DNA from: Gammaproteobacteria bacterium
GTDB taxonomy: Bacteria > Pseudomonadota > Gammaproteobacteria > CAIRSR01
Reading direction: 5' to 3'
Assembly: GCA_963575655.1 (NCBI GenBank)
Contig: CAUYTY010000110.1
Location: 1 to 47,460 of the forward strand
Length of the DNA stretch: 47,460 nt
This document shows, in pieces, positions 23,374 through 45,469 of this stretch. Position 1 is the stretch's first letter, and the number at the start of each line of letters is the position of its first letter. Below the pieces are notes generated by a model. It saw nothing but the letters and a program-made list of their open reading frames with translations. It did not search any database and was not told the origin of the DNA. The position numbers and the translations under genes were made by a program.

Positions 23374-26300
23374 CTACCACTTTCCGTAATAGCCTTCCTT
23401 GAGCGCATCGTAGAGATTGGCAGCCGAATGAGTTTCACCGTCGTACTCGATCTCTTCGTTACCTTTAGCCTCGACCACAGTACCATCCTCTAAAACAAAA
23501 TGGTAGATGGTAGCCGCCAAGTCTTTTTCTTTGACGAGTACTCCTTGAAAAGCCTCGGGGTTGTAGCGGAAGGTGGTACATCCCTTAAGTCCCTGTCGAT
23601 AGGCATAGAGATAAACGTCCTTGAATTTCTCAAAGGGAAAATCAGTGGGAACGTTGATCGTCTTGGAGATTGACGAGTCTATCCAACGTTGGGCCGCAGC
23701 TTGGACATCAACATGCTCACTGGGAGCAATTTCATCGGCGGTGGTGAAATAATCCGGGAGTTGATACTCTGCATCCTCCGCATAAGGCATTGCCTTGGAA
23801 TTAATAAGGGCACGGTAGGCTAATAATTCAAAAGAATAGACATCCACCTTTTCCTTGCTCTTCTTGCCTTCGCGGATCACATTACGTGCGTAGTGGTGGG
23901 CAAAACTTGGTTCAATGCCGTTGCTGGCATTGTTGGCAAGCGACAGTGAGATCGTTCCGGTAGGGGCGATAGAGGTATGGTGGGTAAAGCGGCAACCAAT
24001 CTGCGCCAGATCCTCTATCAATTCCGGGTCCACCTCACGTAGACGCTGCATATAACGGCTATAGCGGGCATGTAGGACCTTACCCATAACACTATCGCCG
24101 ATCTGATAACCATCATTGACCATTTCAGGACGGTGGCGCAGCATTTCCTTTGTCACCACAAAATCTTCCGTCATAATCGGGGCCGGTCCTTTCTCGTGGG
24201 CCAATTCCAAACCGGCACGCCAACCAGTCAGGGCCATTTCCCGGGTGACCTCTTCGGTGAATTCCAGAGATTCAGGGCTACCATAGCGAAGGCGCAGTAG
24301 GGTAAGAGTAGACCCCAGCCCGAGATATCCCATACCGTGTCGACGTTTATGTAAGATCTCCGCACGCTGTCCAGGGAGTGGCAGGCCGTTAATCTCTACG
24401 ACGTTGTCCAACAGACGGGTAAAAATGGAAACTACCTTCCGATATTGTTCCCAGTCAAAAGCCGCACGGTCCGTAAACGGGTGGAGAACAAATTTGGTGA
24501 GGTCAATCGAGCCGAGCAGGCAACTACCATAAGGCGGCAGACCTTGTTCGCCACATTGCCCGGTCGCAATGCCATTAAAAAGAACGGAATTGTGGTCTGG
24601 TTGGGTAGTATCGTAAACCGCCTGACGCCCCACGTAGGTAATTGTCTCGACCCGTGCGCTAAATCGTTGCCCCTGACCCGGAGATTGACCCTTAATCCAC
24701 GTATGATAAGTCTCAACTTTGTCCGTGGACAGGAAACCGATCTCGCTCATGAAGCGATCACGGGATTCGTCATCGATCTGTAATTCATAATTGGCGCGCC
24801 CAGAAGAGTACTGCTGTCCATCTCTGCTATCTGGGAACTGGCACCCTTCCGTGCTATGGAGGTGTGCGATGCGTGCCAAGATCCCGAAATTGGCGAGTAG
24901 CATCTGGATATCTTGCAGCAGACCCTTTTCACGGGATGCAAGACGCACAGAACAGGTCAATGATTCATCAGCAATCTCAACCGTTCCATCGATCTGGAAT
25001 AACCCACGGAGATATCCTTTCGCGCATTCTTCGGTACCACGCCAAACAACCTCAGGCACCTGGAATTTATGCTCTTTGGTGAGGCCGTAATGCTGAAGAT
25101 AGCGGGCCAATAGCACCGATTTAATCAAGACGTGATTACGTTCTTCAACGCCAATCGGCCGCCCTTGATAATCGCAACCGATAAAGTGGCCCGCTCCAGT
25201 AATCAGGAAGTTGACGTAATTGGCAACATCAGCGGCCAGAGCTTGCCCTTCGCCCCAGAGATTGACATAGGTAATTGGCTCGTGGCGCTTACTCTCGGTA
25301 AAGTGACCGTTACCGGTGAGGAGGCCAACCAGAATGCCAAGTTCCAAGGTTCCCTGATTACCAAACTGCCCTTTGCCCGACTGGATCAGGATCTCGTCAC
25401 CGGGTTGCAGCTCTTGGAGTTTGATCTTGCCACGTTGGGTATAGAAATCATGCCACGCGGTGGCCTTAATCTCGTAACCCTCATGGGTGGTAACACGATA
25501 AACATCGGCCGCACCTGCGGTCATAAAAGCGGGTTTGGCCGGACGAATGGCGACACCACATACGGATTGCGCCAAGGTGCGGGTATCGACTGTTACCTCT
25601 AGTGGCGCGGCACTTGCGTACAACTCGCCAATTGGGATCATTCCGTACTGAGTGTGGAGGCGAGTATCCGCAGTGACGCACGGATTCGTTGCCCGGATAC
25701 TCTCACACCACCAATTGTTATTCATCTCATTGTACTGGTCGATGAGAATGAACCCCGGTTCGGCGTAGTCGTAGGTAGAGGCCATGATGAGATCCCATAG
25801 CTTCCTTGCAGGGATGATGCGATAAACCTTGCAGGCTACCCGTCCCGCAATGTCGGTAATATAACCAGTGGTATCGGGCCAGGGACGCCACACCACCTTG
25901 GTGGGGTCCTGAAGGTCGGGGGCATCTGAGGGAGTTTCCTTGGCGCTGATAGGGAAGGCAAGCTTCCAAGAACCATTGGCAACTACTGCTTCCATGAACT
26001 CTTTAGTGATGAGCAAGGACAGATTGAACTGACGCAGCCGCCCTGCCTCGCGCTTGGCACGGATGAAATCCATGACATCGGGATGGCCCACGTCGAAGGT
26101 CGCCATTTGAGCGCCCCGTCGCCCTCCTGCGGAGGACACCGTGAAGCACATCTTGTCGTAGATATCCATGAAGGACAGCGGGCCGGAGGTATAGGATCCC
26201 GCCCCGGAGACGTAGGCCCCACGCGGACGTAGCGTAGAAAACTCGTAACCGGTGCCCGATCCGGCCTTGAGTGTAAGCCCCGCTTCATGGACCTTGGCGA

Positions 26301-26652
26301 GGATGTCATCCATGGAGTCGTGGATGGTGCCCGATACCGTACAGTTGATCGTGGAGGTAGCGGGTTTGTGTTCCAAAGCACCGGCGTTGGAGATAATGCG
26401 CCCGGCCGGGATCGCACCGTGACAGAGTGCCCATAGGAACTTCTCAAACCACTCCTCACGCTTCTCCGGGGTCAGCTCTACCCCAGCCAGCGCCTTTGCT
26501 ACCCGTTTGAAGGTATCGTCCATACTCCGGTCGATAAGCGTTCCATCTTTGGTCTTGAGTCGGTACTTTTTGTCCCAGATGTCCATGGAGGCATTCTGGA
26601 ACGGGATATCGGTAACAGCATTGGGTACAGCTTTGAGGTGAGCGGACTTCAT
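23374..26652 (-). CDS. nrdJa: cobalamin-dependent ribonucleotide reductase, catalytic subunit, with intein
   Basis: Class II reductase using adenosylcobalamin to make deoxyribonucleotides with or without oxygen. The start at MKSAHLKAVPNAV has GGAAGG ten bases upstream; 1092 residues are encoded, about 717 after removal of a 375-residue intein. Host motifs are INCTVSGTIHDSMDDI (catalytic cysteine), GSGTGYEFSTLRPRG, FNLSLLITKEFMEA and the finger loop NPC-GEQGLPPYGSC, which the intein interrupts immediately before the cysteine. It ends with an acidic tail (EGYYGKW). It works with NrdJb, encoded downstream. Upstream are a promoter and two NrdR boxes. Confidence 0.95.
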   Translation of the reverse strand: MKSAHLKAVPNAVTDIPFQNASMDIWDKKYRLKTKDGTLIDRSMDDTFKRVAKALAGVELTPEKREEWFEKFLWALCHGAIPAGRIISNAGALEHKPATSTINCTVSGTIHDSMDDILAKVHEAGLTLKAGSGTGYEFSTLRPRGAYVSGAGSYTSGPLSFMDIYDKMCFTVSSAGGRRGAQMATFDVGHPDVMDFIRAKREAGRLRQFNLSLLITKEFMEAVVANGSWKLAFPISAKETPSDAPDLQDPTKVVWRPWPDTTGYITDIAGRVACKVYRIIPARKLWDLIMASTYDYAEPGFILIDQYNEMNNNWWCESIRATNPCVTADTRLHTQYGMIPIGELYASAAPLEVTVDTRTLAQSVCGVAIRPAKPAFMTAGAADVYRVTTHEGYEIKATAWHDFYTQRGKIKLQELQPGDEILIQSGKGQFGNQGTLELGILVGLLTGNGHFTESKRHEPITYVNLWGEGQALAADVANYVNFLITGAGHFIGCDYQGRPIGVEERNHVLIKSVLLARYLQHYGLTKEHKFQVPEVVWRGTEECAKGYLRGLFQIDGTVEIADESLTCSVRLASREKGLLQDIQMLLANFGILARIAHLHSTEGCQFPDSRDGQQYSSGRANYELQIDDESRDRFMSEIGFLSTDKVETYHTWIKGQSPGQGQRFSARVETITYVGRQAVYDTTQPDHNSVLFNGIATGQCGEQGLPPYGSCLLGSIDLTKFVLHPFTDRAAFDWEQYRKVVSIFTRLLDNVVEINGLPLPGQRAEILHKRRHGMGYLGLGSTLTLLRLRYGSPESLEFTEEVTREMALTGWRAGLELAHEKGPAPIMTEDFVVTKEMLRHRPEMVNDGYQIGDSVMGKVLHARYSRYMQRLREVDPELIEDLAQIGCRFTHHTSIAPTGTISLSLANNASNGIEPSFAHHYARNVIREGKKSKEKVDVYSFELLAYRALINSKAMPYAEDAEYQLPDYFTTADEIAPSEHVDVQAAAQRWIDSSISKTINVPTDFPFEKFKDVYLYAYRQGLKGCTTFRYNPEAFQGVLVKEKDLAATIYHFVLEDGTVVEAKGNEEIEYDGETHSAANLYDALKEGYYGKW
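24556..25680 (-). other. intein with LAGLIDADG endonuclease inside NrdJa
   Basis: Encodes residues 325-699 of the precursor. It starts with Cys (CVTADTRLHTQYGMIPIGEL, block A), has block B T-A-W-H (ATAWHDFYTQRG), and ends DTTQPDHNSVLFNGIATGQ before the +1 Cys of the host. The last two residues are Gly-Gln instead of the usual His-Asn. Two LAGLIDADG-like motifs lie in the middle: LVGLLTGNG, where the catalytic acid is Asn (codon AAC at 25309-25311), and LRGLFQIDG, which keeps Asp. The insertion is in the catalytic NPC/GE loop, a favoured intein site. Flanking host residues rejoin exactly to NPCGEQG. Confidence 0.93.
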
Positions 26653-26800
26653 GAGGTTGGCGCCTTCCAGGATCCTAGGAGTCTTGTTAAAAGAAAGGTA
26701 ATGGCTAGCGGGCCATCTCACGGAGATACGTCATAAACACTTGTTTTTTCTCGACCATGGAAAAGAACTCAGCGAGGTGAGGCGGTTACTTGGTATGGTG

Positions 26801-31752: not shown

Positions 31753-31806
31753 TCCAAGTTGCTACTTGCGGATTCAACCTTGAAGTGCAACAGGTGAACT
31801 AGCCAA
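31749..31806. repeat. element end plus dispersed repeat
   Basis: TAATCCAAGTTGCTACTTGC followed by GGATTCAACCTTGAAGTGCAAC, the inverse of 16495-16535. It lies between the convergent rsmB and cyclase genes and overlaps the 3' end of the cyclase by a few bases. Confidence 0.65.
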
Positions 31807-33790
31807 TGGTAACGGGTGATTCAACATCTAATAGCTGCTTTATCCCCAACAGTCGATATCCTGTAAGCGGTTCGATTCGTCCCTTTAATTTCAATGACCC
31901 GAGACAATAGGCATCCACCTGGTCAGCAACGTATCGATAGGTTGCTTCGCTGATGATAATGCGAAATGGTTCTTTGTCGAAGTCGTGACCAATGTCACTA
32001 TAAGATTCCAGACGTTGTGCCAAAATCACTTCGGCACCCACGGTGGTGTACTTGAGACGTTTAGTGCTCCCCAGGCAACCGGCCACTGCCTTACCCGTAT
32101 GCACCCCGATCCGCATTCCGGCACTTGGCAGACCCGCCGCCCGCCATTCCTCATTCAGTCGCTCCAATTGGTGACCCAAATCAATGGCACAAGCCACCGC
32201 ATTTAAGGCATCTTGACGAATTCCCTCTTCGTTATGCTTGGGAACCGGGACACCAAAATCTGCCTTAATCCCGTCGCCAAAAAAGTCATCTACTAATCCG
32301 CCGTGTTCGGCAATTCGCTCCGACATTGCCTCCATGAAAGTATTAACCCAACTCATCAATGCGTCGGGTTCCATCAGACTGGCCTGCTGGGTATAACCTT
32401 TCATGTCGAGAAATAGTGCAGTCATCGTCAGTCGTTGATTACGCGGGCGGCCCTGGATCAAGAATTCATCGCGACGCTCCCAGAGATTCTCAGCCAACAG
32501 CGGTGATAGATAATTGGAAAAGAACTGCATCAACTGCCCACGCTCAAGGCGTTCACGCCGTAGCACATAGACGCCCATCCAACTGAGAGAAAATCCCCAG
32601 GCGAGTAACGGAGCAATTACCGGTAACCACAAACCATTAGCGGCCAAAATAAAACCAAGGCCGCCAATAGTTGTAATTCCCCCGAGCAGTACCGCCAAGG
32701 AGAAAAGGACACCACTGGCAAACGAACCAAGCACTATCCCAACCAGGGCACTAAAAATAATCAGTGTTACGGTCATACTCTCGGGAACTGCCAACAATGG
32801 CATGGTTTCCTCTAGACCGTTGCGAATCAGTTGGCTGATCGTATGAGCATGGATCACCACCCCAGGCGTCTTGATATCTGAATCGTCATTGGGGTCGTCC
32901 GTAGACGTAGAGAAAAACGAGAACAACGACGCCTCTTTGCCATAGTCACCGACAGGCACGGAGAAATGATCGGTAACACTCTCCAGATGAGGACCAATTA
33001 GAACTATTCGATCAGTAAAGCGCGATAATTCGATCTCACCACGCTGGATAGCGCCAAAGGTAACCGTATCAAAACGCGCACTACCGCCTCGATAGTCCAA
33101 TAGAATCTGATAACCGGCCGCATCAACTCCCCGGTAGCCGCCAGTATTTGGTTCGACCGCTGGAAGCACGGTGTCACCGATCATAATCTGTTGCGGATCC
33201 TGTGGCACATTTTTAAGAGTAATCTTTGTCTTCGCAAGATAATCCAATGCTATTCGCAAACCAAATGATGATATTACCCGGTCATCGTTATCTGTCATCA
33301 TCAACAACCCACGTCGTACCACATTATCGGAATCAAGAACTAGATCATTAAAACCAACCCGTCCGCGTTTCGCCAGAGCAGGATGCGGGGGAATTCCCGG
33401 AGATCGACCTTTCGACATCTTTCTTATACCGATGATGCGTGATTCATTGGCGAACAGCGCATCCAATTCCTCACGACCGGGCGGCTCCGGCAAATCGCGA
33501 TAAAGGTCAATACCCACTACCCGTGGGGCACCTTGAAGAATGGTTTTCAAGACACTCGCTAATGCTTGATCGCTAAATGGCCAGTGTTGCGTGTGAATAT
33601 CATTCTCGACAATTTCAACAATGACTACCCGTGGATCGGGCTGGCCCCGTGTCGTAAATTTCAACAATTGGTCGTAGGCAACTAATTCAAACCACTGAAT
33701 TGCCCCCAACCAACGTAGCAGCAATACGGCGACCCAGACCGCACACCAGAGCATAAGTCCACCCCGCCCAATCTTTCCTAGCTTAAACAT
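31799..33790 (-). CDS. CHASE2-domain class III adenylate/guanylate cyclase
   Basis: Membrane receptor cyclase of 663 residues. An N-terminal helix (LMLWCAVWVAVLLLRWLG) leads to a periplasmic CHASE2 sensor (VVGIDLYRDLPEPPG, RGLLMMTDNDDRVISSFGLR, ILLDYRGG, DRIVLIGPHLESVTDHF). Three membrane helices follow (about 340-420). The C-terminal catalytic domain has the metal-binding aspartates in LFLDMKGYTQQ and DDFFGDGIKADFG, and the HTGKAVAGCLG...KYTTVGAEV segment. These residues appear complete, so it should make cAMP or cGMP; ATP versus GTP preference cannot be decided by eye. Neighbouring genes encode two cyclic-nucleotide-binding proteins, likely effectors. Confidence 0.92.
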   Translation of the reverse strand: MFKLGKIGRGGLMLWCAVWVAVLLLRWLGAIQWFELVAYDQLLKFTTRGQPDPRVVIVEIVENDIHTQHWPFSDQALASVLKTILQGAPRVVGIDLYRDLPEPPGREELDALFANESRIIGIRKMSKGRSPGIPPHPALAKRGRVGFNDLVLDSDNVVRRGLLMMTDNDDRVISSFGLRIALDYLAKTKITLKNVPQDPQQIMIGDTVLPAVEPNTGGYRGVDAAGYQILLDYRGGSARFDTVTFGAIQRGEIELSRFTDRIVLIGPHLESVTDHFSVPVGDYGKEASLFSFFSTSTDDPNDDSDIKTPGVVIHAHTISQLIRNGLEETMPLLAVPESMTVTLIIFSALVGIVLGSFASGVLFSLAVLLGGITTIGGLGFILAANGLWLPVIAPLLAWGFSLSWMGVYVLRRERLERGQLMQFFSNYLSPLLAENLWERRDEFLIQGRPRNQRLTMTALFLDMKGYTQQASLMEPDALMSWVNTFMEAMSERIAEHGGLVDDFFGDGIKADFGVPVPKHNEEGIRQDALNAVACAIDLGHQLERLNEEWRAAGLPSAGMRIGVHTGKAVAGCLGSTKRLKYTTVGAEVILAQRLESYSDIGHDFDKEPFRIIISEATYRYVADQVDAYCLGSLKLKGRIEPLTGYRLLGIKQLLDVESPVTIG

Positions 33791-34214: not shown

Positions 34215-35930
34215 TTAGAATTGGTAACTCGCCTGAAACAACACCCCGTGATCCTGCAAAGTAGTGGTGGGATGGTCTACCTGACCAAAAGGAACGCCAA
34301 AATAGATATTGGCCTGTAATCGTTCATTGGGTTGCCAACGCAAACCGATTCCCGCACTAGCCAGAGATTCATGTTTCTCCGTTTTATCCCAGGTTTGGCC
34401 AAGATCGATGAATGGCGCAATTTGCAGCGTCTGCCCACCATGCTCACCATCTCCGAGGGGGGCGCGCAATTCCAGTGAGAGGAGCCAACCATTGTCATGG
34501 ATCAGCAACCCTTCACGATAACCGCGCACCATATTAGGGCCGGCCATGGAAAAACGCTCAAGCAGTAACAGGGATTCATCGGAAAATCGAGCCAATGCTC
34601 GAGTGATCTGCTGATAGCGTCGGTTTTCGCCGAAGCGTCGCGCCCACTGCAACTCCCCCATCCACGAAAAGAATCGGCTATCAGGGGCAGAAGAATTAAT
34701 TGTAGAACCCAGGGCATCAATCCCCAGGCTAAAGGTCGAGCGGGCAGCCAATACCTGCTCCAGAGAACGCGACAGCCATTCCTGTTCCAGGCGTATCACC
34801 GCAACGCTACTCTTTCCATTAGCCTCGCCTGCAAAAAAAGAAAAAGGGTCATCCAACAGGGATGTCTTATTTTCGGCCCATTCGAGCTTTACGCCAAGTT
34901 TATTTTCAGCATCTGGACTACGTACCAGAAAATGATATAGACCCACATGGAAACGACGCGATTTCCCCGTGATATCCAGATCTTTAAAATCTGGACTAAT
35001 CGCTCGCGCATCCACATACTCACCACCGAAAGCAAGCGCAGTGTTACGTCCCCGTAACGGAAAATCGTAGTCAATGGTGGTGTCGTTTACGCCTTGGCTG
35101 CGTGCATAACTAACCTGGAGGGCATCTGCGTTACCAGTGATATTAGCAAAACCACCAGTTAGAATAACCTGTTCGCTACCTACATCCGGGGGCCGGTAAT
35201 TATTCGTTTCGATCTGCCAGTGCCAGAGGGTGGCCTCAGTCACCTCAGCGGCCAGGGTCGCCTCGCCACGACGCAGACCGGGAATTACCTCAACCTTAAT
35301 CCGTTCGATCAACGGGTCCTGGTGTAAAAGTAATACTCGATCCTGGAGTTGCTGCATATTGAGCACCTCTGTTGGTTCGGGTAAGAGCCCCTGCTCAATA
35401 AAACTATTATGTAAACGACGATTACCACTCACCTGTATCCCGCAGACCTGCCCTTCTACCACCTGGAAATGTACTTTGCCATTCGTAATTTCCTGATCGG
35501 GGATCCAAGTGCCGGAATTGATATAGCCGTGGTCCACGTAGAATTTGGTCAGGCGATGACGGATGGCCTGGAGTTCTTCCGCAGTGACCGCACGTCCCAG
35601 ATCGGAACCAATCACCGCCAGCAATTGCTCATCACTGAATACGTGGTTACCCTCAAAGGTAACACTTAGCAAAAGCACCTTTTGGGCATCGGCCAGGTGG
35701 GGGGGGTCAGGATTTCCCAAGGTTGGCGGCAAGATCGGTGCCGCGTCGGGCCGCGAATTGGAAAATCCCAGTTCGGTTGATTTGGTCCAGCCACCTCGGA
35801 GACCGACATCAGGTCCAATTCCCGGAGTAAGCGAGGCCCCTAAGGTTAGGAGAGGTGCAAGCACCCCTCCCACCAGAATAAACCAGCGCAGAGGGACGCC
35901 CCAAAATATCACGGATGAGTCTCCAGCCAT
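34215..35930 (-). CDS. TpsB/FhaC/ShlB-type outer-membrane transporter
   Basis: Two-partner-secretion pore of 571 residues. Signal-like N-terminus (FILVGGVLAPLLTLGASL) and a proline-rich stretch precede a POTRA domain (VTFEGNHVFSDEQLLAVIG, YVDHGYINSGTWIPDQEI, VVEGQVCGIQVSGNRRLHN), a second POTRA-like part, and a 16-strand barrel. The conserved loop-6 motif appears as MVRGYREG, and the protein ends with an aromatic residue (YQF). It exports the TpsA exoprotein encoded in the same cluster. The start overlaps the DUF928 stop by 22 bp, so the two are coupled. Confidence 0.94.
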   Translation of the reverse strand: MAGDSSVIFWGVPLRWFILVGGVLAPLLTLGASLTPGIGPDVGLRGGWTKSTELGFSNSRPDAAPILPPTLGNPDPPHLADAQKVLLLSVTFEGNHVFSDEQLLAVIGSDLGRAVTAEELQAIRHRLTKFYVDHGYINSGTWIPDQEITNGKVHFQVVEGQVCGIQVSGNRRLHNSFIEQGLLPEPTEVLNMQQLQDRVLLLHQDPLIERIKVEVIPGLRRGEATLAAEVTEATLWHWQIETNNYRPPDVGSEQVILTGGFANITGNADALQVSYARSQGVNDTTIDYDFPLRGRNTALAFGGEYVDARAISPDFKDLDITGKSRRFHVGLYHFLVRSPDAENKLGVKLEWAENKTSLLDDPFSFFAGEANGKSSVAVIRLEQEWLSRSLEQVLAARSTFSLGIDALGSTINSSAPDSRFFSWMGELQWARRFGENRRYQQITRALARFSDESLLLLERFSMAGPNMVRGYREGLLIHDNGWLLSLELRAPLGDGEHGGQTLQIAPFIDLGQTWDKTEKHESLASAGIGLRWQPNERLQANIYFGVPFGQVDHPTTTLQDHGVLFQASYQF

Positions 35931-36631
35931 TGTGCTATTGCCTTCAAATCTCCCTGAGCCAACAGAGTGCCACGCTGCAAACGATGTTCTGGGGTGTTCT
36001 TCTGATCAACTAATTGATTAAGGCACTGAAGTGCGTCGTACCACAGACCTTGCGCCGCATAGGCCGTGGCCTGTTGTATTCGTCCGTGCTGTCGGCAATC
36101 GACCGTTCCCCCGTTTCCATCGGTAGTACGAACTACGCTCCCAGCAACAAAGGTATCCGCTGAACGATGGGTGTCATCATTCACCAAAGACACCGACCAC
36201 TGGTACTCCACATCCGGTTTGAGTTTGATCCCCAATTTGGCCAAATCGATACCCTGAATGCCCGGTCGCGAGGGACTCGGTAGACGTATTTCAAGCACCG
36301 GATTCTCTTCGTTAGGGACCGTTATTGCCAGATCCAGTGGAGTATTTACTGCTTGTGAGATAAACCAATAGAGAATTGGTTGGGTCTGGCTGGTCAATCC
36401 CGTTTGCGGTGGGACCAAGGCTGACATCAATAGCTGGGTCTTATCTCCACGAGACCCCCCACCAATGCGACGAGCGGGGGCGCCACGATTAGGAGGAGTG
36501 AAGGCAATCGCGCCGGAAAATGATTCTACAGTTGGTGATTGGTCCAGATCTTCCGAAGTAGCACCATGAATAGGCACCAATAAAGTCCCGGCCAGTAGAA
36601 CACCGAGTAGTTGTCGAGTTGGGTGCAACAT
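35909..36631 (-). CDS. DUF928-family secreted protein
   Basis: The 240-residue product has a signal peptide (LLGVLLAGTLLVPIHGATSE). The DUF928 core follows, beginning FTPPNRGAPARRIGGGSRG, with ALVPPQTGLTSQTQPILYWFI, beta-rich segments and the conserved GIKLKPDVEYQWSVSLV. An alpha-helical end (AYAAQGLWYDALQCLNQLVD) is typical of the family. DUF928 genes accompany TPS and CHAT genes in cyanobacteria and sulfur bacteria; a periplasmic helper role is inferred, with no biochemical function known. Coupled to tpsB. Confidence 0.9.
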   Translation of the reverse strand: MLHPTRQLLGVLLAGTLLVPIHGATSEDLDQSPTVESFSGAIAFTPPNRGAPARRIGGGSRGDKTQLLMSALVPPQTGLTSQTQPILYWFISQAVNTPLDLAITVPNEENPVLEIRLPSPSRPGIQGIDLAKLGIKLKPDVEYQWSVSLVNDDTHRSADTFVAGSVVRTTDGNGGTVDCRQHGRIQQATAYAAQGLWYDALQCLNQLVDQKNTPEHRLQRGTLLAQGDLKAIAQWLETHP

Positions 36632-36739
36632 GATTTTCTCCTAAATGTACAATGCTTTTAGTTAACACAATCTGCTATTCTTCTTCATTTCGATAGAAAG
36701 TACCGAGATGATGAATAGGCAACAATTTTGGTTACAGGT

Positions 36740-39073
36740 CTAGTGCCAATTACCAATAAGTAAGAATGGCGCCCACAAACCTGCATGTCGATAAGGGCCT
36801 GCTTTCAACAGCACCATTTGTGCTTGACGTAACGCTTGGGCCTTGGATTGCCGAGAATCGGCTAACTGTTGGTAAAACTCCGCCATTAATCGAGTGGTCG
36901 CCTCATCATTGACCAACCACAGGGTAGCCAGGGCACTACGCGCCCCCGCCTTTACCGCCACGCCACCGAGTCCTAAAGCCGCTCGATCATCGCCAACCGC
37001 AGTTTGACAGGCACTCATCGTAAGCAATTCCACTGGTTCATCCCGAAACCGAGTCAAACGGATAAAACGTTCCAATTGATCCAGGGTAAGATGTTCGTCA
37101 TAGGTCAGAATGAAACTCTCTTGTCCTTTTTCCTCAAAATGGCCGTGAGAGGCGAGGTGGATAATATTATAAGTATTGTCGCTCAGGCTGCGATGCATCT
37201 TTTCGAGTTCAAAGTTTTTGTTTCTGAGCACTGTGGCGGGAAACAGCTTCTCCAGATTGGCAGTTTCCAGGGCGACATTGGGTAGCGCAGGGAAACCCTG
37301 GCGCGCTTCCGTAAGGGCGGTGATTAGGGCAGAGCGCCCCCCTCGCTGGTTAGCGTCGCCCAGGTCGGTAATGCCCAGACCCGGCGAGGTTGCCACTGCA
37401 AATCGCTCCAGCAGGTAGTGAGCGCCGTCGTTGAGGGCGGCCAGGGGTAACAAGCGCAGGGCGCCGTCGGGCACAAAGACGAGGGTATCTACTCCGACCA
37501 AATCCGCTTCGAGCGGTTTAATGAGGGCTTCGTAGAGTCGTCGCGCCGGGGCTAGGTATTGATACGTCGAGCGTTTTTCCAGCAGTGCTCGCAGGCGATG
37601 GGCATTGTCTACGACCTCCGTGGTCGGCAATGGGGAGATGCGTTGGAAGATGTGCTCGCCACGACTGACCAGCATTACGGTACGGTCGGGCAAGAGCAGT
37701 GGATAGAGTACGGCGGTAGTGTCCTCCGCCTGCGCACCGGAGAGTCCCCGGCCTTGAGCCTGAGGGTCGCGTAGGCATTCATCCTTGAAGTAGTCCTTCA
37801 ACTCGGCGGTCTTGAGCTGTTCCAGCACGGTTTGAACCTGCCGCAGCAGGGTACCTCGCCCTTCCTCGCTATCTGTCTGTTCGGCGCGATGTAACAAGAG
37901 GTTGGCAAGTTCAAGAAAGAGTGCCCCGGTGGATTCTCGAAAGCGGTCGGCCGCATCGGTTGCCGTGGCAGTCGCTGGTCGGAGCCCCTGCAATTGTTCA
38001 ATGGCACGACGATAGCCCTGGATGGCCGGCTCGTGCTGACCCAAACGCTCCAACAAGCGTGCGCTCTGCCACTCCCAGCGATACTGGATGGGGACGGAGA
38101 GGGTTTGGGCGGTAAACAAGGCGCGCCGGTAGAACTGGAGTCCTTCCTGGAGGCGTCCCTGCTCACTGTAGAGCGCCCCTAATTCGGCATTGGCCAGGGC
38201 AGTGGCGTAATCATCCTGGATCCCTTGGGCTACGTTGAGCCCAGCCCGAAAGGCATCGTAGGCCGCACGCAAGTGGTGGTCACGTCCTACGCCAGCCGTT
38301 GTGCTCAGTGCGCGATAGATCCAACCCACGGCAAGGTGGGCCATGGCTGTCTGGTGCGCGGGAGGGGCGGCACGTAAGCGCGCCACAGCGATGGAGAGGG
38401 TTTGATCGGCAATACTCGATTGCTTGGTGATGATCTGAAGTCGGGCCTGGGCCAGTAATACCCCCACGGTAGCCAAGGGCGCTGTCGCACGATTAGCGGT
38501 TTGGCGGGCTTGGTCGTAGAGGGCCGCCGCCGCAGTGGAATCACCGCGCCGCACGGCCCTTTCACCAAGCTGGATCTGGACTTCAGCCAATTCGGCAGAA
38601 GGCCCTAGCGGGGTCAGAAGGTCACGCGCTCGGGTCAGTAGATTTTCGGCGGAGTTGTTCGAATCCTTGGCCGAGTCGTTCGCATGAACGCGGGCCAAGG
38701 CTGACAAAATTTGGCCCTGTTGGAGCACGACCCCACCCTCGGTCGCTACACGCAATGCCTCGTCGAAGGCCTCTCCTGCCTCAGTCCAGCGCCCCAGAGA
38801 TCGATAGGACTCGCCCTGAAGGAGCCACTGTTCTGCCCGTTCCGTCGGCGTAGCGGCCAGCGTACGTTCCTGCTGAAGTTGTTCGATGGCCTCGACGAAG
38901 TGGCCTCGTAGCCACTGCTCCTTGGCATCCAATACCGCCCCAGACGGTGATGCCCAGAACAGCGACAAAGTAGTAATAGTTAGCAATAGTGAACGTAGGG
39001 AAAGGATCATTGACAATCGTTCGCAAACATTGGCACCCAACATTCCAACAAGCCTAAAATTCCGATTAATCAT
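36740..39073 (-). CDS. TPR-CHAT caspase-like protease, exported
   Basis: 777 residues. A signal-peptide-like segment starts at M22 (MILSLRSLLLTITTLSLFWA; start at 39010 if that Met is used; the longer start leaves a 16-bp gap to tpsA). Roughly residues 50-430 are tetratricopeptide-type helical repeats (ALANAELGALYSEQGRLQEG is one). The C-terminal third is a CHAT domain with an intact catalytic dyad: H643 in HLASHGHF and C689 in SACQTAVGDD. The ALGLGGVAVKAGARSALATLW stretch and the final FLLIGNW are family-typical. The protein would be a cysteine protease in the periplasm or outside. It sits between TpsA and DUF928-TpsB, so TpsA or a partner may be its target (inference). Confidence 0.93.
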   Translation of the reverse strand: MINRNFRLVGMLGANVCERLSMILSLRSLLLTITTLSLFWASPSGAVLDAKEQWLRGHFVEAIEQLQQERTLAATPTERAEQWLLQGESYRSLGRWTEAGEAFDEALRVATEGGVVLQQGQILSALARVHANDSAKDSNNSAENLLTRARDLLTPLGPSAELAEVQIQLGERAVRRGDSTAAAALYDQARQTANRATAPLATVGVLLAQARLQIITKQSSIADQTLSIAVARLRAAPPAHQTAMAHLAVGWIYRALSTTAGVGRDHHLRAAYDAFRAGLNVAQGIQDDYATALANAELGALYSEQGRLQEGLQFYRRALFTAQTLSVPIQYRWEWQSARLLERLGQHEPAIQGYRRAIEQLQGLRPATATATDAADRFRESTGALFLELANLLLHRAEQTDSEEGRGTLLRQVQTVLEQLKTAELKDYFKDECLRDPQAQGRGLSGAQAEDTTAVLYPLLLPDRTVMLVSRGEHIFQRISPLPTTEVVDNAHRLRALLEKRSTYQYLAPARRLYEALIKPLEADLVGVDTLVFVPDGALRLLPLAALNDGAHYLLERFAVATSPGLGITDLGDANQRGGRSALITALTEARQGFPALPNVALETANLEKLFPATVLRNKNFELEKMHRSLSDNTYNIIHLASHGHFEEKGQESFILTYDEHLTLDQLERFIRLTRFRDEPVELLTMSACQTAVGDDRAALGLGGVAVKAGARSALATLWLVNDEATTRLMAEFYQQLADSRQSKAQALRQAQMVLLKAGPYRHAGLWAPFLLIGNWH

Positions 39074-39089
39074 GATTCTTACGCCATTG

Positions 39090-41741
39090 TTAGAATACCC
39101 AGTCTTTTACCACGTCACCAACTGCCTGAGCGGGACGTACCAGGAGTTGACTACCGCGTTCACGCGGTTTGCAATTGCGGGATAACTGTTGGTCGATGGC
39201 TAAGTAATCAGAGGGTAAGGTGGCAACTGTTCCATTGGATACCTGATTCGGGGCATTCAACTGTATATTTCCGTTAAGACCAAGGTTGGAAGAGGCGCGA
39301 ATTACACTACCTGCAGAACGAAGGATAGTATTGGCATCGATCGTAATATTCCCACCTCTCCCTAGATCGGCGTCAGCAACAATTTGACTCCGGCTCAAAA
39401 CTACAAAGCGGGGATCAATGGTAATACTGCCACCATTTCCACTACCACTATGAACACTGGTCAGGATATTTCCGTCACGAAGATATACTCGATTGTTAAC
39501 GGCCAATGATACGTTACCACCACCGGCACTTTTGGCCGTCGTCTGAATACTCGCACCGTTCAACATATCAAGATTCTGGGCCGCAACCACAATATTCCCC
39601 GCATGTCCAGCATTTTCGGTGAGAGAAGAGACAGTACTAATGGTACTGGAGACTCCGTCCATCACAAGATTTTCAGATACCTTGACGTTGATAGTGCCAC
39701 CATTGCCTTTGGTATTGGTGGTAGAGTCAATAGAGGCACCGTTGCGGATCTCTAAAGTATGCGTGTTGATTGTAATATCTCCCGCATCACCTCTTTCTAT
39801 GCTGTCGCTATTCCCCATATCAGATTTGAATTCACTGTTGGCGAAGATGGAACTCACTTTCCCATTTTTTGTATACCGACCATCCAATGAAATAGCGTCT
39901 GCGGTTATATTGATCTTGCCAGCATGAGTATTTCTCTGCCCCTTGGTTTCAGTACTAATCGATCCGCCATCCTTCAGAGTTAGCTTACTGGTTCGAATGT
40001 TGACATCCCCTCCGCTACCAGTAGCGTTATCCCAGACCGCGCTAAACAGGTGACTGCCATGCTGAGGGTTTACCGCGTCGTAGCCACTTACCAACAACTG
40101 GCGAGAGATGATATTGAGATTGCCTGCCCTACCTGCACCACGAGTAGTATTATCAATCCTTGAGCCTCCGAGAACTTCCAGATTAGTGGCGTTGATCGTA
40201 ATGTTCCCACCGTTCCCAGTAGAGGACGGGGCACCAGGTAAATTAGACACCTCAGTACCGCCAGAAATGACCGATGTTTTGTTCAGCACCAGATTCTGAG
40301 CCTGCAAAGTAATCGGGCCAGCGTTACCACTACCGCTGGTAGTGCTAGAAATAAGTGCTGAATCATTCAGGGTCAAATTTTTGGTATTCATGATGATCGG
40401 TCCAGCGTTACCGCTGCCACTGGTCGTACTATCGATCTTTGAACCCCCCCAAATTTTCAGGTTAGTAGCATGGATCCTGACATTTCCAGCGTTTCCAGTA
40501 GAAGGGGGAGCGCCCGGAAATCTAGGCATCTCCGCACTGCTGGAAATAACTGATGTTTTATCCAGTACCAGATTCTGAGCCTGCAAAGTAATCGAGCCAG
40601 CGTTACCACTACCGCTGGTAGTGCTAGAAATAAGTGCTGAATCATTCAGGGTCAAATTTTTGGTATTCATGATGATCGGTCCAGCGTTACCACGACCACT
40701 CGTAGAGGAGGAGATCATGCTGCTGTGACCGCTAAAGGGGTCTCCGCCGTAGAGAGAAAAATCCCGGGCTAGGATACGGGTCGTTCGGCTATCGGAATCC
40801 TGCGTCTTATCGGTGATCTGGCTCCCATTTAGTTTCACCGCTCCACCTACCATGACAACGGCGGTAGCTGGTATCGAGACATCAAGTGAGGCACGCCTAA
40901 CCCTAGGAGGCGGCGGTGGATTACCCCCACCATTAGAATCTGACATACCCGTATTTACGTTCGCATTAACGAGGGTGATCGCACCATTAGCACTACCTGC
41001 AATCCAGAAATTAGTACTGGCGTTAGGGTCGTTAGGGTCAGCACCAGAATCAACGGGAATATCGCCGGGTTCGCTAACCGCCGCGAGTGCGACCCGGCCT
41101 TTGGGCGCATTGATTGAAGCAGACCATTCGTGAGTGGAATCTCCTTCGACATCAATCCCACCGGAAACAAATTCCAGGGTCCGGAAATCTGGGACACTCA
41201 ATCTACAGTGGTCACATCTAATGATGGCTGGATTTGGTTCCAGGAAACCAAAGGCCTCAGGCGCGGCACTGGTGAGGGTTGATTCGGTAGGATGACTCGC
41301 CGAAAATTGTTTTCCATCCGCGAACTTTATAGTATTTGCGGTAGAGGCGTAGAAAGAACCTCTGACATCCAGAGAGGAATGAGGACCAAAAATCACTCCA
41401 TAAGGGTTGAAAAGGTAGACATTGGCACCGTCAATGGTGCTACGGATCGTACCGTCAATGGAAGAAGGGGTCCTACCGGTAACCCGCGCAATAACATTCT
41501 GGATCTGAACCCCGGGTTGTCCGTTGAAAGTCGCAGCTTCACCGTTGGCAATATTGAATGTCCGAAAACTATGAAAGAGATTGCCGCCTCGCAATTGACC
41601 GAGGTTTGCGCCAATATCGTAGTTATTGTTAATTGGCGGAAGTGTACCACGGGTACCCATAGTTCCATCTAAGACTACCCCTGCTTGCGTCGGCAGAGAA
41701 AGCAAGAGTGGCAACACCAACAGGATGTAGAATCGATACAT
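39090..41741 (-). CDS. TpsA filamentous-haemagglutinin-type exoprotein
   Basis: 883 residues with signal peptide (LLVLPLLLSLPTQAGVV) and an N-terminal TPS secretion domain: GTRGTLPPINNNYDIGANLG, LFHSFRTFNIANGEAATF, the ANVYLFNPYGVIFGPHSSLD motif (positions about 107-127) and NPAIIRC. The rest is a right-handed beta-helix built of approximate repeats rich in G, N and S, including a duplicated 93-residue block. The C-terminal end contains SRNCKPRERGSQLLV, common at the end of short TPS exoproteins. Probably a secreted or surface adhesin exported by the TpsB encoded downstream. Confidence 0.94.
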   Translation of the reverse strand: MYRFYILLVLPLLLSLPTQAGVVLDGTMGTRGTLPPINNNYDIGANLGQLRGGNLFHSFRTFNIANGEAATFNGQPGVQIQNVIARVTGRTPSSIDGTIRSTIDGANVYLFNPYGVIFGPHSSLDVRGSFYASTANTIKFADGKQFSASHPTESTLTSAAPEAFGFLEPNPAIIRCDHCRLSVPDFRTLEFVSGGIDVEGDSTHEWSASINAPKGRVALAAVSEPGDIPVDSGADPNDPNASTNFWIAGSANGAITLVNANVNTGMSDSNGGGNPPPPPRVRRASLDVSIPATAVVMVGGAVKLNGSQITDKTQDSDSRTTRILARDFSLYGGDPFSGHSSMISSSTSGRGNAGPIIMNTKNLTLNDSALISSTTSGSGNAGSITLQAQNLVLDKTSVISSSAEMPRFPGAPPSTGNAGNVRIHATNLKIWGGSKIDSTTSGSGNAGPIIMNTKNLTLNDSALISSTTSGSGNAGPITLQAQNLVLNKTSVISGGTEVSNLPGAPSSTGNGGNITINATNLEVLGGSRIDNTTRGAGRAGNLNIISRQLLVSGYDAVNPQHGSHLFSAVWDNATGSGGDVNIRTSKLTLKDGGSISTETKGQRNTHAGKINITADAISLDGRYTKNGKVSSIFANSEFKSDMGNSDSIERGDAGDITINTHTLEIRNGASIDSTTNTKGNGGTINVKVSENLVMDGVSSTISTVSSLTENAGHAGNIVVAAQNLDMLNGASIQTTAKSAGGGNVSLAVNNRVYLRDGNILTSVHSGSGNGGSITIDPRFVVLSRSQIVADADLGRGGNITIDANTILRSAGSVIRASSNLGLNGNIQLNAPNQVSNGTVATLPSDYLAIDQQLSRNCKPRERGSQLLVRPAQAVGDVVKDWVF
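40195..40735. repeat. 279-bp duplication inside tpsA
   Basis: The block around 40270-40420 recurs about 279 bp further on (for example gcgttaccactaccgctggt at 40321 and 40600), preserving the frame as 93-residue units. A shorter internal repeat of the GSGNAG-containing coil occurs within each unit. Signs of recent in-frame duplication. Confidence 0.8.
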
Positions 41742-41868: not shown

Positions 41869-42954
41869 CTATCGCCTTGGTGGAATAGTAACGCTGATCT
41901 CTTTCTCGAATAAAAACACCACCCGTCGATTGGCCGCACGACGCTCAATTTCACTCGTCCCCACCACGAACGGTAATGGGCGCGTATCCGCATAACCTGT
42001 AACCGCTAACCGACTTGGCGCAATACCGCGTTCAATGAGAAAACGCGCCACCCGACCCGCCCGCGCCGCTGACAGTTCCCAATTCGAGGGAAATTGTTGG
42101 GTGTGAATCGGAATATCATCGGTGTGTCCCTCGATACGGATAGCATACGGGAGGCGTAGTACAAAACTGGCGACCTGATTTAATAGATCATTGGCGCGGG
42201 GGGTCATTTCCGCACTACCCGAGGAAAATAGTAGGTCTCCCGTTGCGGTCAAGGCCACCCCCGTCGAGACCAATTGCACCCGGGCAAGACCTTCCAGGCC
42301 GAGGGCGGTGAGTTGAATTTGGATCTCGCGGAGCAAATCATCGTAGCCGATCTGTTTAGCTACCGGTTGATTGGATATCGGCGGACTCTTTACGAGAGTT
42401 TTGGCAAGCGATTCCTTAATCTGCTCTGCTTTGCTGGCATCAATGCGCGAGGCGGCATAGAGCACAATAAACAGGGCCAGCATGAGCGTAATCAGGTCCG
42501 CAAAGGACATGAGCCAGGCATCCAGATCCTCTTCGGCGACTGGACGGCGGCGGCGCAACCGAGAAACCGGCGGCAACGATGCTGTGGATTTGGTCGGAAC
42601 CGAGGGGTGAGGCGCCGGCGGCGTGGGTGTAGGAGGACTGTTCGAAACCGCCCCCGGCGAGGGATCCGCAGGTCGTGCTGGTGCGCGAGGAAGCGACCCC
42701 GGTGGGCGGACCGCAGATGGCGCGGTCGCAGGGTTGGCCGAAACCGCCCCCGGCGAGGGATCCGCAGGTCGCACCGATGCACGAGGAGGCGCCCCCGGTG
42801 GGCGAGCCGCAGATGGCACGGTCGTAGCGCTGACCGGAGAGGTCGCAGGACGTGACACAGGCGGTGCAGGCATCGGCTTGTTTGGGTCTGATGTCTCAGA
42901 CTGGGGGCGGGGCGCAGGCGGCGCAGATAGCGGTTTGGTTGGTGGAGTGTCCAT
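41869..42954 (-). CDS. motB: MotB/PomB-like stator protein with long proline-rich N-terminus
   Basis: 361 residues. Residues 1-140 are Pro/Ala/Ser-rich with two copies of a 32-residue repeat, about 110 residues longer than usual. Then come the cytoplasmic basic stretch SRLRRRRPVAEEDLD and a single membrane helix with the ion-carrying aspartate at D153 (AWLMSFADLITLMLALF). The plug/linker and an OmpA-like peptidoglycan-binding domain (IRIEGHTDDIPI, NWELSAARAGRVARFLIERG) follow. SFADL-TL resembles sodium-type PomB/MotS more than E. coli MotB. It follows motA by 11 bp, forming a MotA-MotB unit anchored to the wall. Confidence 0.95.
   Translation of the reverse strand: MDTPPTKPLSAPPAPRPQSETSDPNKPMPAPPVSRPATSPVSATTVPSAARPPGAPPRASVRPADPSPGAVSANPATAPSAVRPPGSLPRAPARPADPSPGAVSNSPPTPTPPAPHPSVPTKSTASLPPVSRLRRRRPVAEEDLDAWLMSFADLITLMLALFIVLYAASRIDASKAEQIKESLAKTLVKSPPISNQPVAKQIGYDDLLREIQIQLTALGLEGLARVQLVSTGVALTATGDLLFSSGSAEMTPRANDLLNQVASFVLRLPYAIRIEGHTDDIPIHTQQFPSNWELSAARAGRVARFLIERGIAPSRLAVTGYADTRPLPFVVGTSEIERRAANRRVVFLFEKEISVTIPPRR
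42641..42830. repeat. 96-bp tandem repeat in motB
   Basis: GAAACCGCCCCCGGCGAGGG and its following sequence occur at 42644 and 42740, two in-frame copies of 32 codons (RPADPSPGAVS core) with some divergence. High GC. Confidence 0.75.
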
Positions 42955-42965
42955 GAATTAATCCT

Positions 42966-43754
42966 TTATTTCTTACGGTCCTGACCTACCCGTACATCCT
43001 TCCACTGACGCGCCGGAATAAAGGCCTTCAATTGATCGAGCACCAGATCGGGCGGCGTTTTCATAGCGACCAGTAGCACCCCCTCCATGATTACCTCCAT
43101 GAGAAGCGTATGCTCTTCGGCGCGGCGCTCCATTTTGATCGCGATGGGTTGAAATACTAGATTGGCGAGTAAAACCCCGTAGAGAGTAGTCAGCATCGCC
43201 ATACCCATGGCAGGGCCAATGCCATTCATATCATTTCCCAGATGCTGAAATAGATTGATGAGGCCAATTAGGGTGCCTACCATACCAAACGCTGGAGCAA
43301 AACGGGCCATGGTACGAAACATTGCCGCCTCTCGTAATTCCGATTCACGAGCCTTTTCGATGGTACTCTCCAAAATGTGACGAACCCGATCTACAGGATA
43401 ACGATCTACAATCATGCGCAAGGCATCTTGCAGAAAGAAATTCTCCACTCCCTCCAGTTCTTCCTCTAAACGGATCGTACCACCGGCCATTACTTGACCA
43501 GCCAAATAATGGAGGGCACGAATATAGTGAGGTACCGGTAAACTCTCACGGCGCAGCACCTTGATAAAGGCACCAAAGGAGCGCAATACATCGCGTAATG
43601 GATAGGAGGTAAAGGTAGCGGCAACCACGCCACCGACCACAATCGCTAAACTTTCCGGTTGGACAAATAATGCGGCGTTGCCCGTTGCACTATAAATGGC
43701 CCAACTTAAGGTGATAAAACCAACCAGAACGCCAATAATCGTTGCGATATTCAT
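42966..43754 (-). CDS. motA: MotA/PomA-like stator protein
   Basis: 262-residue inner-membrane stator subunit that uses ion flow to drive motor rotation. Four membrane helices are visible: IATIIGVLVGFITLSWAIY, LAIVVGGVVAATF, FGMVGTLIGLINLF and the GMAMLTTLYGVLLANLVF helix. The long cytoplasmic loop carries charged residues that touch FliG in classical motors (REAAMFRTMARF follows it). GMVGTLIGLI is the PomA/MotP-type signature. It has the normal length. Downstream of two cyclic-nucleotide-binding genes and directly upstream of motB. Confidence 0.95.
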   Translation of the reverse strand: MNIATIIGVLVGFITLSWAIYSATGNAALFVQPESLAIVVGGVVAATFTSYPLRDVLRSFGAFIKVLRRESLPVPHYIRALHYLAGQVMAGGTIRLEEELEGVENFFLQDALRMIVDRYPVDRVRHILESTIEKARESELREAAMFRTMARFAPAFGMVGTLIGLINLFQHLGNDMNGIGPAMGMAMLTTLYGVLLANLVFQPIAIKMERRAEEHTLLMEVIMEGVLLVAMKTPPDLVLDQLKAFIPARQWKDVRVGQDRKK

Positions 43755-43847: not shown

Positions 43848-44321
43848 TCATCCAAAACTAAATTGGCGCAGGGTTAGGTCCGCATCCTTGAGGCGATCGG
43901 CAAGAATCAATGCGATGTTATATAAGATGCGCATTCCCACCTCTGGATTAGCAGCGAGCAACTCCCATAAGGCGACCCCTTCGATCTGAATGATGTCAAC
44001 CGCATCGATACACTTCACCGTTGCGGTACGATACTGACGCTTCAACCAATTGACCTCACCGATTAATTCATACTGACCCTCTCCGACCATAAATTCTTTA
44101 CAGAGAGGAGGTTCCGAGCTGCCCGGTCGGGAGTTTATAGCTACTTCCACGCTACCGTTACTCACCACATACAGATTATAATCCGCAGTGCCCTCGGCGG
44201 TAAGGGTCTCACCAGGAACTAATTGGCGCTCGCTACAGATAGCAGCAATCTCTGTTAGTCGATCGGTCTCGATATTGTCCAAGAGTGGTATAGCGCGCAG
44301 TTTTTCTATCAAGGCTGTCAT
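43848..44321 (-). CDS. cyclic-nucleotide-binding domain protein
   Basis: 157 residues made of one cNMP-binding beta-roll with flanking helices and no output domain. The N-terminal helix (ALIEKLRAIPLLDNIETDRL) leads to YNLYVVSNGSVEVAI. The phosphate cassette is YELIGEVNWLKRQYRTATV, where the glutamate and an arginine are both in place, so binding of cAMP or cGMP is plausible. It lies 5 bp after the cNBD-FliG fusion gene and 93 bp before motA, so it is very likely in one operon. It may act as a soluble regulator of the stator. Confidence 0.88.
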   Translation of the reverse strand: MTALIEKLRAIPLLDNIETDRLTEIAAICSERQLVPGETLTAEGTADYNLYVVSNGSVEVAINSRPGSSEPPLCKEFMVGEGQYELIGEVNWLKRQYRTATVKCIDAVDIIQIEGVALWELLAANPEVGMRILYNIALILADRLKDADLTLRQFSFG

Positions 44322-44326
44322 GGATA

Positions 44327-45469
44327 TTAGATCCCGAGGGCAATTTGCTTGATTCGTTCGATGATGCGCTGCTCTAATTGCGCCACACGCATCTCATCCA
44401 CTTGATTGATAGAACCCATGGTTTGGGTAATAATTCCACGCATTCGCCCGGAGAGAGCACTAAGGGCACGTTCACACACCGGCGGATCTTGTTTCTTCAG
44501 TAACAGGGCCAAGTCGTAGGGCTCTACTTCCCCAAAGGCCAGTGCCATGGTCTCTTGATCTACAAATTCGATATCACAAAACTCTTCCAAATCTTCGATC
44601 TTTTTAAACGTTCGTTTCTTAAAGAACTGGCTGCCCTTATCTTGGAGGAGCTTCAATACCTCGGTACGACGAAAGAGAAACAGATCTGACGGCAATTCCC
44701 CTTGTGCTATTTTGCGCACCAGGAGCGGTTCTTCTACCTCGACCAAACGCGCCAATTCATGCAGCTCGATAAACTCCACATCGGTGTGGAGTTTATCGGC
44801 AACCAGATCGCCCATTTTAGTGGTGAGATTACGTGCATCGGCGACAATTCGTGCGGGTTCAAAGCGCACGACAGCATGATCCCCCCCGCCATCAATCTTG
44901 ACCAGGTTTAGATCGGCCATGTGTCGAAGGATCTCTTTGATTCGGAAGGGAGGGAGGGTGGCGGCCGCCGCCTTCAGGGTCTCAAGACACTGACGGTAGG
45001 GGAGGCTGGCCATAGCCTCGCCTCGACCACGCCCGGAACTCCCAACAGAACGCGCCAACAGCTCCAAGATGGTTGCAAAAGAGATCAAGGCATTACTCGC
45101 CGCCGCGTGTGGTACCGCTGTCTCGGTCAGTACTTTGACTCGCTCGATGAGGGCGACGATGATCGTGCGCAGCAAGGGGTTGGCCTGCTGCATGAGCTGT
45201 TCCAAAACCGTACGGTTGACCAGGTAGGCCTCGGTGTACTCGTAGGCAGTGGCTGTGGCGCTACGAGGCTCACCAAGGATCACGCCCATTTCACCGAAGC
45301 AACGATTCGGCCCAACCTTGGTCAACACAACCTTTTGACCATCACGCAGGATCGAGATCTCAACCTGTCCAGTTTTGACGATGTAGGCATACTGCCCAGA
45401 AGATCCTTCTCGGAAGATGGTTTCTCCCTTACCGAAGGTTGTCACTGTTGGGGGCATGGTAGATTCCAC
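44327..45469 (-). CDS. cNMP-binding domain fused to FliG C-terminal-like rotor domain
   Basis: 380 residues (start at M1, or M5). Residues 10-115 are a cNMP-binding domain with a complete cassette FGEMGVILGEPRSATA (E60, R69). Residues 120-290 are mostly helical with winged-helix-like parts (FRIKEILRHMADLNLVKIDG). Residues 293-376 align by eye with the FliG C-terminal torque domain: EEFCDIEFVDQETMALAFGE, YDLALLLKKQ and ALSGRMRG. Of the classical torque residues, K264 and R281 equivalents remain (K325, R342), whereas D288/D289 and R297 are replaced (Q349/T350, D358). Followed by a second cNBD gene and motAB. I know of no characterised protein with this layout. Confidence 0.85.
   Translation of the reverse strand: MESTMPPTVTTFGKGETIFREGSSGQYAYIVKTGQVEISILRDGQKVVLTKVGPNRCFGEMGVILGEPRSATATAYEYTEAYLVNRTVLEQLMQQANPLLRTIIVALIERVKVLTETAVPHAAASNALISFATILELLARSVGSSGRGRGEAMASLPYRQCLETLKAAAATLPPFRIKEILRHMADLNLVKIDGGGDHAVVRFEPARIVADARNLTTKMGDLVADKLHTDVEFIELHELARLVEVEEPLLVRKIAQGELPSDLFLFRRTEVLKLLQDKGSQFFKKRTFKKIEDLEEFCDIEFVDQETMALAFGEVEPYDLALLLKKQDPPVCERALSALSGRMRGIITQTMGSINQVDEMRVAQLEQRIIERIKQIALGI

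Follow-up and report, generated by a model that had tools for sequence, protein, structure and literature searches.

A CRP-like cyclic-nucleotide-binding protein with a FliG C-terminal domain, encoded beside its own motA and motB genes

In Escherichia coli, the contact between the stator protein MotA and the rotor protein FliG involves two charge pairs, R90 of MotA with D288-D289 of FliG and E98 of MotA with R281 of FliG (PMC12505986). Some proteins that act on these partners have been described. For example, the nucleotide-controlled protein YcgR binds both MotA and FliG (PMC10140304), and EpsE acts on the rotor as a clutch (PMC3000366). In the papers reviewed here, the effectors YcgR, FlgZ and EpsE either are responsive to c-di-GMP or function as a clutch on the rotor, and cAMP acts on motility through transcription (PMC13432727). 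Among nucleotide receptors, Bdellovibrio Bd2879 has its nucleotide-binding domain at the N-terminus, with two winged helix-turn-helix (HTH) domains after it, and the ligand residues of Bd1971 are E58 (ribose), R67 (phosphate) and R108 (base cap) (PMC12750041). Then, could a cyclic-nucleotide receptor itself carry the C-terminal domain of FliG? A literature search, covering few subscription journals, returned no paper that joins FliG with a cNMP-binding domain in the sense described below. As far as could be checked, this architecture is new, although nucleotide-controlled motor effectors are already known.

Here, we describe such a fusion, P0001, encoded on a stretch of 47,460 nucleotides (the window) from a gammaproteobacterial genome. 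The features referred to in the text are as follows, with the evidence for each given in brackets.

44327..45469, minus strand: P0001, cNMP-binding / CRP-like / FliG_C fusion protein, 380 aa (open reading frame, Pfam, model with fold match, recurrence)
45116..45451, minus strand: cyclic-nucleotide-binding domain (CNB) of P0001, residues ~7-118 (PF00027; E60, R69 and R110 invariant)
44858..45106, minus strand: CRP-like winged HTH (HTH1) of P0001, residues ~122-204 (AlphaFold2 models and fold matches; no Pfam match)
44600..44857, minus strand: helical segment of P0001, probable second HTH, residues ~205-290 (conserved block, model helices, Bd2879 domain order)
44342..44593, minus strand: FliG C-terminal domain of P0001, residues 293-376, six helices (PF01706, AlphaFold2, fold match)
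43848..44321, minus strand: P0002, second, single-domain cNMP-binding protein, 157 aa (PF00027, 2e-8)
42966..43754, minus strand: P0003, MotA-type stator subunit, 262 aa (PF01618 MotA_ExbB, 7e-25; PomA/MotA structures, 3e-34)
41869..42954, minus strand: P0004, MotB-type stator subunit, 361 aa (PF13677 MotB_plug, 4e-16; PF00691 OmpA, 6e-17)
31799..33790, minus strand: protein with CHASE2 and class III nucleotidyl cyclase domains (PF05226, 3e-50; PF00211, 4.5e-14)

The open reading frame of P0001 is intact and begins with GTG. The four genes, in the order CNB-FliG_C, CNB, MotA and MotB, form a same-strand run with gaps of 5, 93 and 11 nt, and the fusion stands at its head because the upstream gene, which encodes T2SS protein K, is divergent. 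The run and its Pfam matches agree with the preliminary description of this DNA, in which the fusion headed an operon with a second cNMP-binding protein, MotA and MotB.

The same description joined a complete-looking cNMP-binding cassette to the C-terminus of FliG, and both parts of this assignment hold. The Pfam model PF00027 (cNMP_binding) matches residues 11-95 (1.3e-22, 80 bits, cut-off 27.5), and PF01706 (FliG_C) matches residues 293-376 (2.1e-9, 38.1 bits, cut-off 23.3). In the AlphaFold2 model of P0001, built with 34 relatives, residues 291-380 form six helices with a pLDDT of ~85-93. The modelled domain matches the solved FliG-C structures 3ajc and 4fhr with a Z score of 13.5 and an rmsd of 1.6 Å over 87 residues, which is the outcome of the fold check that had been proposed, and 8ucs_H, the chain of FliG bound to MotAB, with a Z score of 12.9. 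The six-helix fold is thus that of FliG, including the MotAB-bound form, at 25% identity to 3ajc. In addition, when all PDB sequences were searched with a profile of the fusion family minus the CNB, FliG chains were the sole matches (E 8e-6), and FliG_C was detected in 33 of 35 family members, the remaining two, from Methylobacter, stopping before it. Because of the profile search, the recurrence among relatives and the fold match, the FliG_C assignment is not a chance match, and an overfitted profile is likewise ruled out. However, FliG also possesses the domains FliG_N, which binds FliF, and FliG_M, which binds FliM, whereas P0001 lacks both and has its FliG_C domain fused to a CRP-like receptor.

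The nucleotide pocket of this receptor looks competent for a ligand, judging from the sequence, as the ribose Glu and the phosphate Arg are kept. Residues E60, R69 and R110 do not vary among the 35 aligned relatives, and their spacing equals that of E58, R67 and R108 in Bd1971; the phmmer match between the two proteins covers the ligand-residue region with equal lengths on both sides. Bd2879, in contrast, lacks the phosphate Arg and the ribose Glu (PMC12750041).

Full-length homologues of P0001, with ~27-33% identity, occur in Burkholderia, Paraburkholderia and Caballeronia, on chromosomes as well as on large secondary replicons. It should be noted that a contig search with the single P0001 sequence gave no relatives, which were retrieved with an alignment as query. 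At 41 of 41 loci from these three genera, motA and motB directly follow the fusion gene. The two genes also adjoin it in both genomes of the window's genus, that is, the window genome and its sister G001, where the order is fusion-motA-motB and an equivalent of P0002 between the fusion and motA is absent. The recurrence beside motAB that had been named as a check was therefore found. Within the window's family the fusion is present in three of four genomes (the window genome, G001 and G003), and in G003 it has no linked motAB; at that locus (L120, 4711-9139) a TPR/outer-membrane-like protein, a FecR-like protein and a CHASE2 cyclase come after the fusion in place of motAB. Overall the fusion is rare, occurring in 2 of 398 genomes sampled across the phylum, and in the family that contains Burkholderia it was found in 18 of 100 genomes, one of the 18 being a weak match. 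A viral origin was also considered and rejected, as a scan of viral contigs gave no relative. A comparison of the window with G001 shows purifying selection on every domain of P0001, as dN is 0.09-0.21 and dS is either saturated or above 2; the corresponding dN of the linked MotA is 0.05.

The recurrence of the fusion beside its own motAB suggests that a special set of flagellar stators is under the control of a small-molecule signal. We consider most likely, with about an even chance, that P0001 is an adaptor or decoy for a dedicated auxiliary MotAB stator and is controlled by cyclic nucleotide; in this reading, cNMP binding, MotA binding and the effect on the motor are all putative. A CRP-type receptor, comprising the CNB, a winged HTH and a probable second HTH, would carry the FliG-C domain, which would let the protein dock on its own auxiliary MotAB, and perhaps on other stators, at the cytoplasmic torque interface. 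Ligand in the CNB would alter the presentation of the FliG-C domain. This presentation would control the access of the stator to the real rotor, with the protein serving as a decoy, clutch or brake, or would help the stator to engage. The adaptor reading is favoured by the high-confidence FliG-C fold, the adjacency of motA-motB at every one of the 41 Burkholderia-group loci and in the two genomes from the window's genus, the invariance of the three pocket residues and the purifying selection on every domain, but the unlinked fusion of G003 speaks against it.

Two kinds of precedent favour it as well. The flagellar brakes YcgR, FlgZ and MotI resemble the proposed adaptor in how they work, as a nucleotide second messenger acts on MotA or FliG. 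However, they are PilZ proteins of unrelated fold that respond to another class of ligand, c-di-GMP, while in P0001 the effector itself bears FliG-C, and PilZ and YcgR domains gave no Pfam match on P0001. Similarly, the B. subtilis clutch EpsE is a non-motor protein that uncouples rotor and stator, but it has a glycosyltransferase fold that acts on FliG and is not FliG-like, whereas P0001 carries FliG-C. If the adaptor reading is true, a receptor with the rotor's stator-binding domain would let a mononucleotide messenger act directly on stator engagement. Many Burkholderia and Paraburkholderia species carry the fusion next to its own stator genes, so that tractable environmental strains are available for testing it.

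A possible source of the ligand is the CHASE2-cyclase of the window, which lies on the same strand as P0001 and 10.5 kb downstream; its membership in the P0001 system is uncertain, and so is its activity, because the position of the transition-state Asn reads Ile (VGAEVILAQR). In G003, a CHASE2-cyclase is located 2.4 kb downstream of the fusion. The fusion of the sister genome G001 is preceded, 254 nt upstream on the same strand, by the gene of a class III nucleotidyl cyclase (PF00211; L121, 9695-11917). The class III cyclase genes number only 4, 2 and 5 in G001, G003 and the window genome, respectively, and the cyclases neighbouring the fusion in the three genomes are mutually 25-28% identical, that is, non-orthologous. 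With so few cyclases per genome and neighbours that are not close relatives, three separate occurrences beside the fusion exceed a rough expectation, for a proximity that was noticed after the fact. These non-orthologous neighbours in the window's clade favour the adaptor reading, but three Burkholderia-type genomes that carry the fusion contain neither class I nor class III cyclases. Therefore, the ligand there may not be cAMP, or another class of enzyme may make it.

A pure adaptor role would leave the HTH domains unexplained, and it is this region that supports the most serious rival. Residues 1-212 of P0001 have the layout of CRP, with the CNB, the C-helix and the winged helix in order, as judged from the model and its fold match to T. 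thermophilus CAP (4ev0, 24% identity); CRP/FNR regulators such as this CAP, Clr and NtcA share the succession of CNB and winged helix. When modelled alone, HTH1 gave a Z score of 8.5 against 4ev0 and of 8.7, over 98 residues, against Bd2879 (9sfa). Residues ~205-290 contain a conserved block (ELELIELADLEALIGVE...FAFRKSKVL), are helical at moderate pLDDT in the model, and are probably a second HTH, MerR/excisionase-like by eye. No HMM matched this segment, a profile search of the PDB with the middle region gave no significant relative, and comparison of folds yielded no clear assignment for the segment. As the middle of P0001 would comprise a CRP-like winged helix and a probable second HTH, as in Bd2879, P0001 is best described as a CRP-type receptor plus FliG_C. 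The preliminary description had overlooked this middle part, and likewise the sigma-28-like promoter of the Burkholderia relatives and the cyclases close to the fusion. The order of CNB, winged HTH and further HTH-like segment is shared with Bd2879, which, however, ends in a disordered zinc-finger region where P0001 ends in FliG_C. Two Methylobacter proteins of 288-300 aa (L071, 7965-8867, and L073, 7977-8843) have the CNB and the same middle region without FliG_C and constitute a stand-alone receptor family, so FliG_C looks to have been added to a pre-existing receptor.

Consequently, P0001 could be a stator-tethered transcription factor, a putative DNA-binding regulator of the CRP/Bd2879 type for which FliG_C is an anchor at MotAB. 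The state of the stator and the cyclic nucleotide would jointly set its release to DNA, so that motor load or surface contact is passed on to gene expression; this would be a route from the state of the motor to genes. We consider this serious rival unlikely. The CRP layout of residues 1-212, the matches of HTH1 to Bd2879 and CAP and the two winged HTHs of Bd2879 itself all favour it, as do the Burkholderia copies, which retain the CRP-like recognition helix SRPHVxAMLRRMEKLNLV. However, the window and Methylobacter proteins lack the SR motif of the recognition helix, so that the DNA-binding motif is not conserved across the fusion family, and P0001 further differs from CRP/FNR regulators in its additional domains. 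No HTH family model scored above its cut-off, and HTH_Crp of Pfam gave no match on P0001 at E up to 1.

Also unlikely in our view is that one polypeptide, a receptor docked on the stator, links cyclic nucleotide to DNA binding and to the mechanical state of the dedicated MotAB. FliG-C would sense or load the stator, the CNB would sense the nucleotide and the HTH domains would relay both to genes; if true, this would be a direct motor-to-transcription mechanosensor.

The torque charges of FliG_C are partly kept or lost in the P0001 family. In the window protein, the equivalents of K264 and R281 are kept and those of D288 and D289 are lost under each alignment tried, while the equivalent of R297 depends on the alignment, being D358 in the near-ungapped structural register and R361 with MAFFT. 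Of the altered torque residues in the preliminary description, the loss of the acidic pair therefore stands, and that of the distal Arg is undecided. In Burkholderia it is K264 and R281 that are lost. On the stator side, E98 is kept in the linked MotA everywhere, and R90 is replaced by Met or Ile in the window's genus and by Lys in Burkholderia. R281 of the window protein and E98 of its MotA are kept and D288/D289 and R90 are lost, so both partners retain their half of one charge pair and lack their half of the other. The poor retention of these charges, K264/R281 in Burkholderia and D288/D289 in the window's clade, counts against the adaptor reading, as the FliG_C surface may no longer bind MotA. 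FliG_C could be a plain dimerisation or protein-binding module without MotA contact, its neighbourhood reflecting co-regulation only. The extensive loss of torque residues in Burkholderia and the fusion retained without linked motAB in G003 agree with this. But motA-motB linkage is strict in two lineages, and FliG_C is under purifying selection and recognisable in 33 of 35 members, which makes a plain module improbable.

The linked stator pair shares with the MotAB/PomAB group, of the flagellar ion transporters, the MotA_ExbB domain, the channel prolines, the MotB plug, the transmembrane Asp and the OmpA domain, and all of the linked MotA and MotB domains score above the Pfam cut-offs. In P0003, both channel prolines and the equivalent of E98 are kept, and that of R90 is Met in the alignment. 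P0004 has a proline-rich N-terminus, a transmembrane helix with the ion-binding Asp (SFADLITLM, by inspection) and an OmpA-like peptidoglycan-binding domain. Its N-terminal extension (42550-42954, minus strand), proline-rich and repeat-like, spans ~135 residues and is much shorter in the G001 relative of 254 aa. The pair differs from typical stators in being an extra copy, divergent from the other stators of the same genomes, and in its residue at the R90 position. Two more MotA genes of the flagellar type occur in the window genome, each fusion genome examined has at least one further MotB gene, and an ordinary fliG is present in 8 of 8 genomes checked; these further MotB and FliG genes accord with the adaptor reading. 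In the tree, the linked MotAs of the window and Burkholderia lineages do not form one clade and have long branches (AU p 2e-37). The sister relationship that had been expected is rejected, though the long branches make the rejection unsure; therefore, either the fusion acquired different stator genes as neighbours in the two lineages, or both sets of linked MotAs diverged rapidly. That these MotAs are not one clade also favours the adaptor reading.

The promoter of the textbook sigma-28 factor (FliA) is TAAAG-N14-GCCGATAA. An element close to it, T(A/C)AAG-N14/15-GNCG(A/T)3, is located 129-157 nt before the start of the fusion match at 41 of 41 Burkholderia-group loci, with spacer sequences that differ widely, against 13 of 4516 control stretches (0.3%). 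It should be noted that the pattern was drafted after 11 of the 41 sequences had been viewed and many of the loci are close relatives, so 41 of 41 overstates the number of independent events. Some of the off-target matches precede chemoreceptor genes. Across one Burkholderia-type genome, the close exact pattern gave 6 matches versus 8 for the reversed control, and is not specific; therefore, the sigma-28 claim rests on position at the 41 loci. In addition, a chemoreceptor gene adjoins the operon in 16 loci. Both the element and these neighbours favour the adaptor reading, but no such element was found before the window gene or other fusion genes of its clade.

The same evidence bears on the possibility of a separate, non-flagellar rotary device with no part in swimming, in which the fusion is driven by the linked MotAB or gates it. 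The stator pair is indeed an extra, divergent copy, and without FliG_N and FliG_M the fusion cannot join the C-ring by known surfaces. However, the sigma-28-like promoter at all 41 loci and the chemoreceptor neighbours point to the flagellar regulon, and ordinary fliG is present in all fusion genomes checked, so that we regard such a device as improbable.

As for the rotor substitute of the preliminary description, an alternative subunit that would take the place of FliG in the C-ring or be mixed with it there, the FliG-C fold and the K264 and R281 equivalents kept in the window's clade would suit it, but it is nearly excluded by the absence of FliG_N and FliG_M matches in Pfam, the score of 17.1 bits for NCBIfam fliG against a cut-off of 226.7, the lost acidic torque residues and the presence of a normal fliG. 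With neither FliG_N nor FliG_M and with poorly conserved torque charges, P0001 is not a spare rotor subunit, as that description had also favoured in preferring a clutch or decoy to an ordinary rotor.

Some minor observations were also made. Downstream of motB on the same strand, the window contains a cluster (34215-41741, minus strand) encoding a TPS-domain exoprotein, a CHAT-TPR protein, a DUF928 protein and a ShlB/FhaC transporter. The gene of the ribonucleotide reductase large chain (23374-26721, minus strand) carries an inserted LAGLIDADG/intein region (PF14528, PF14890). Finally, in one Burkholderia-type genome a further FliG-like C-terminal domain (98 bits; L141, G476:C1:133575-133898) is encoded separately from the main fliG.
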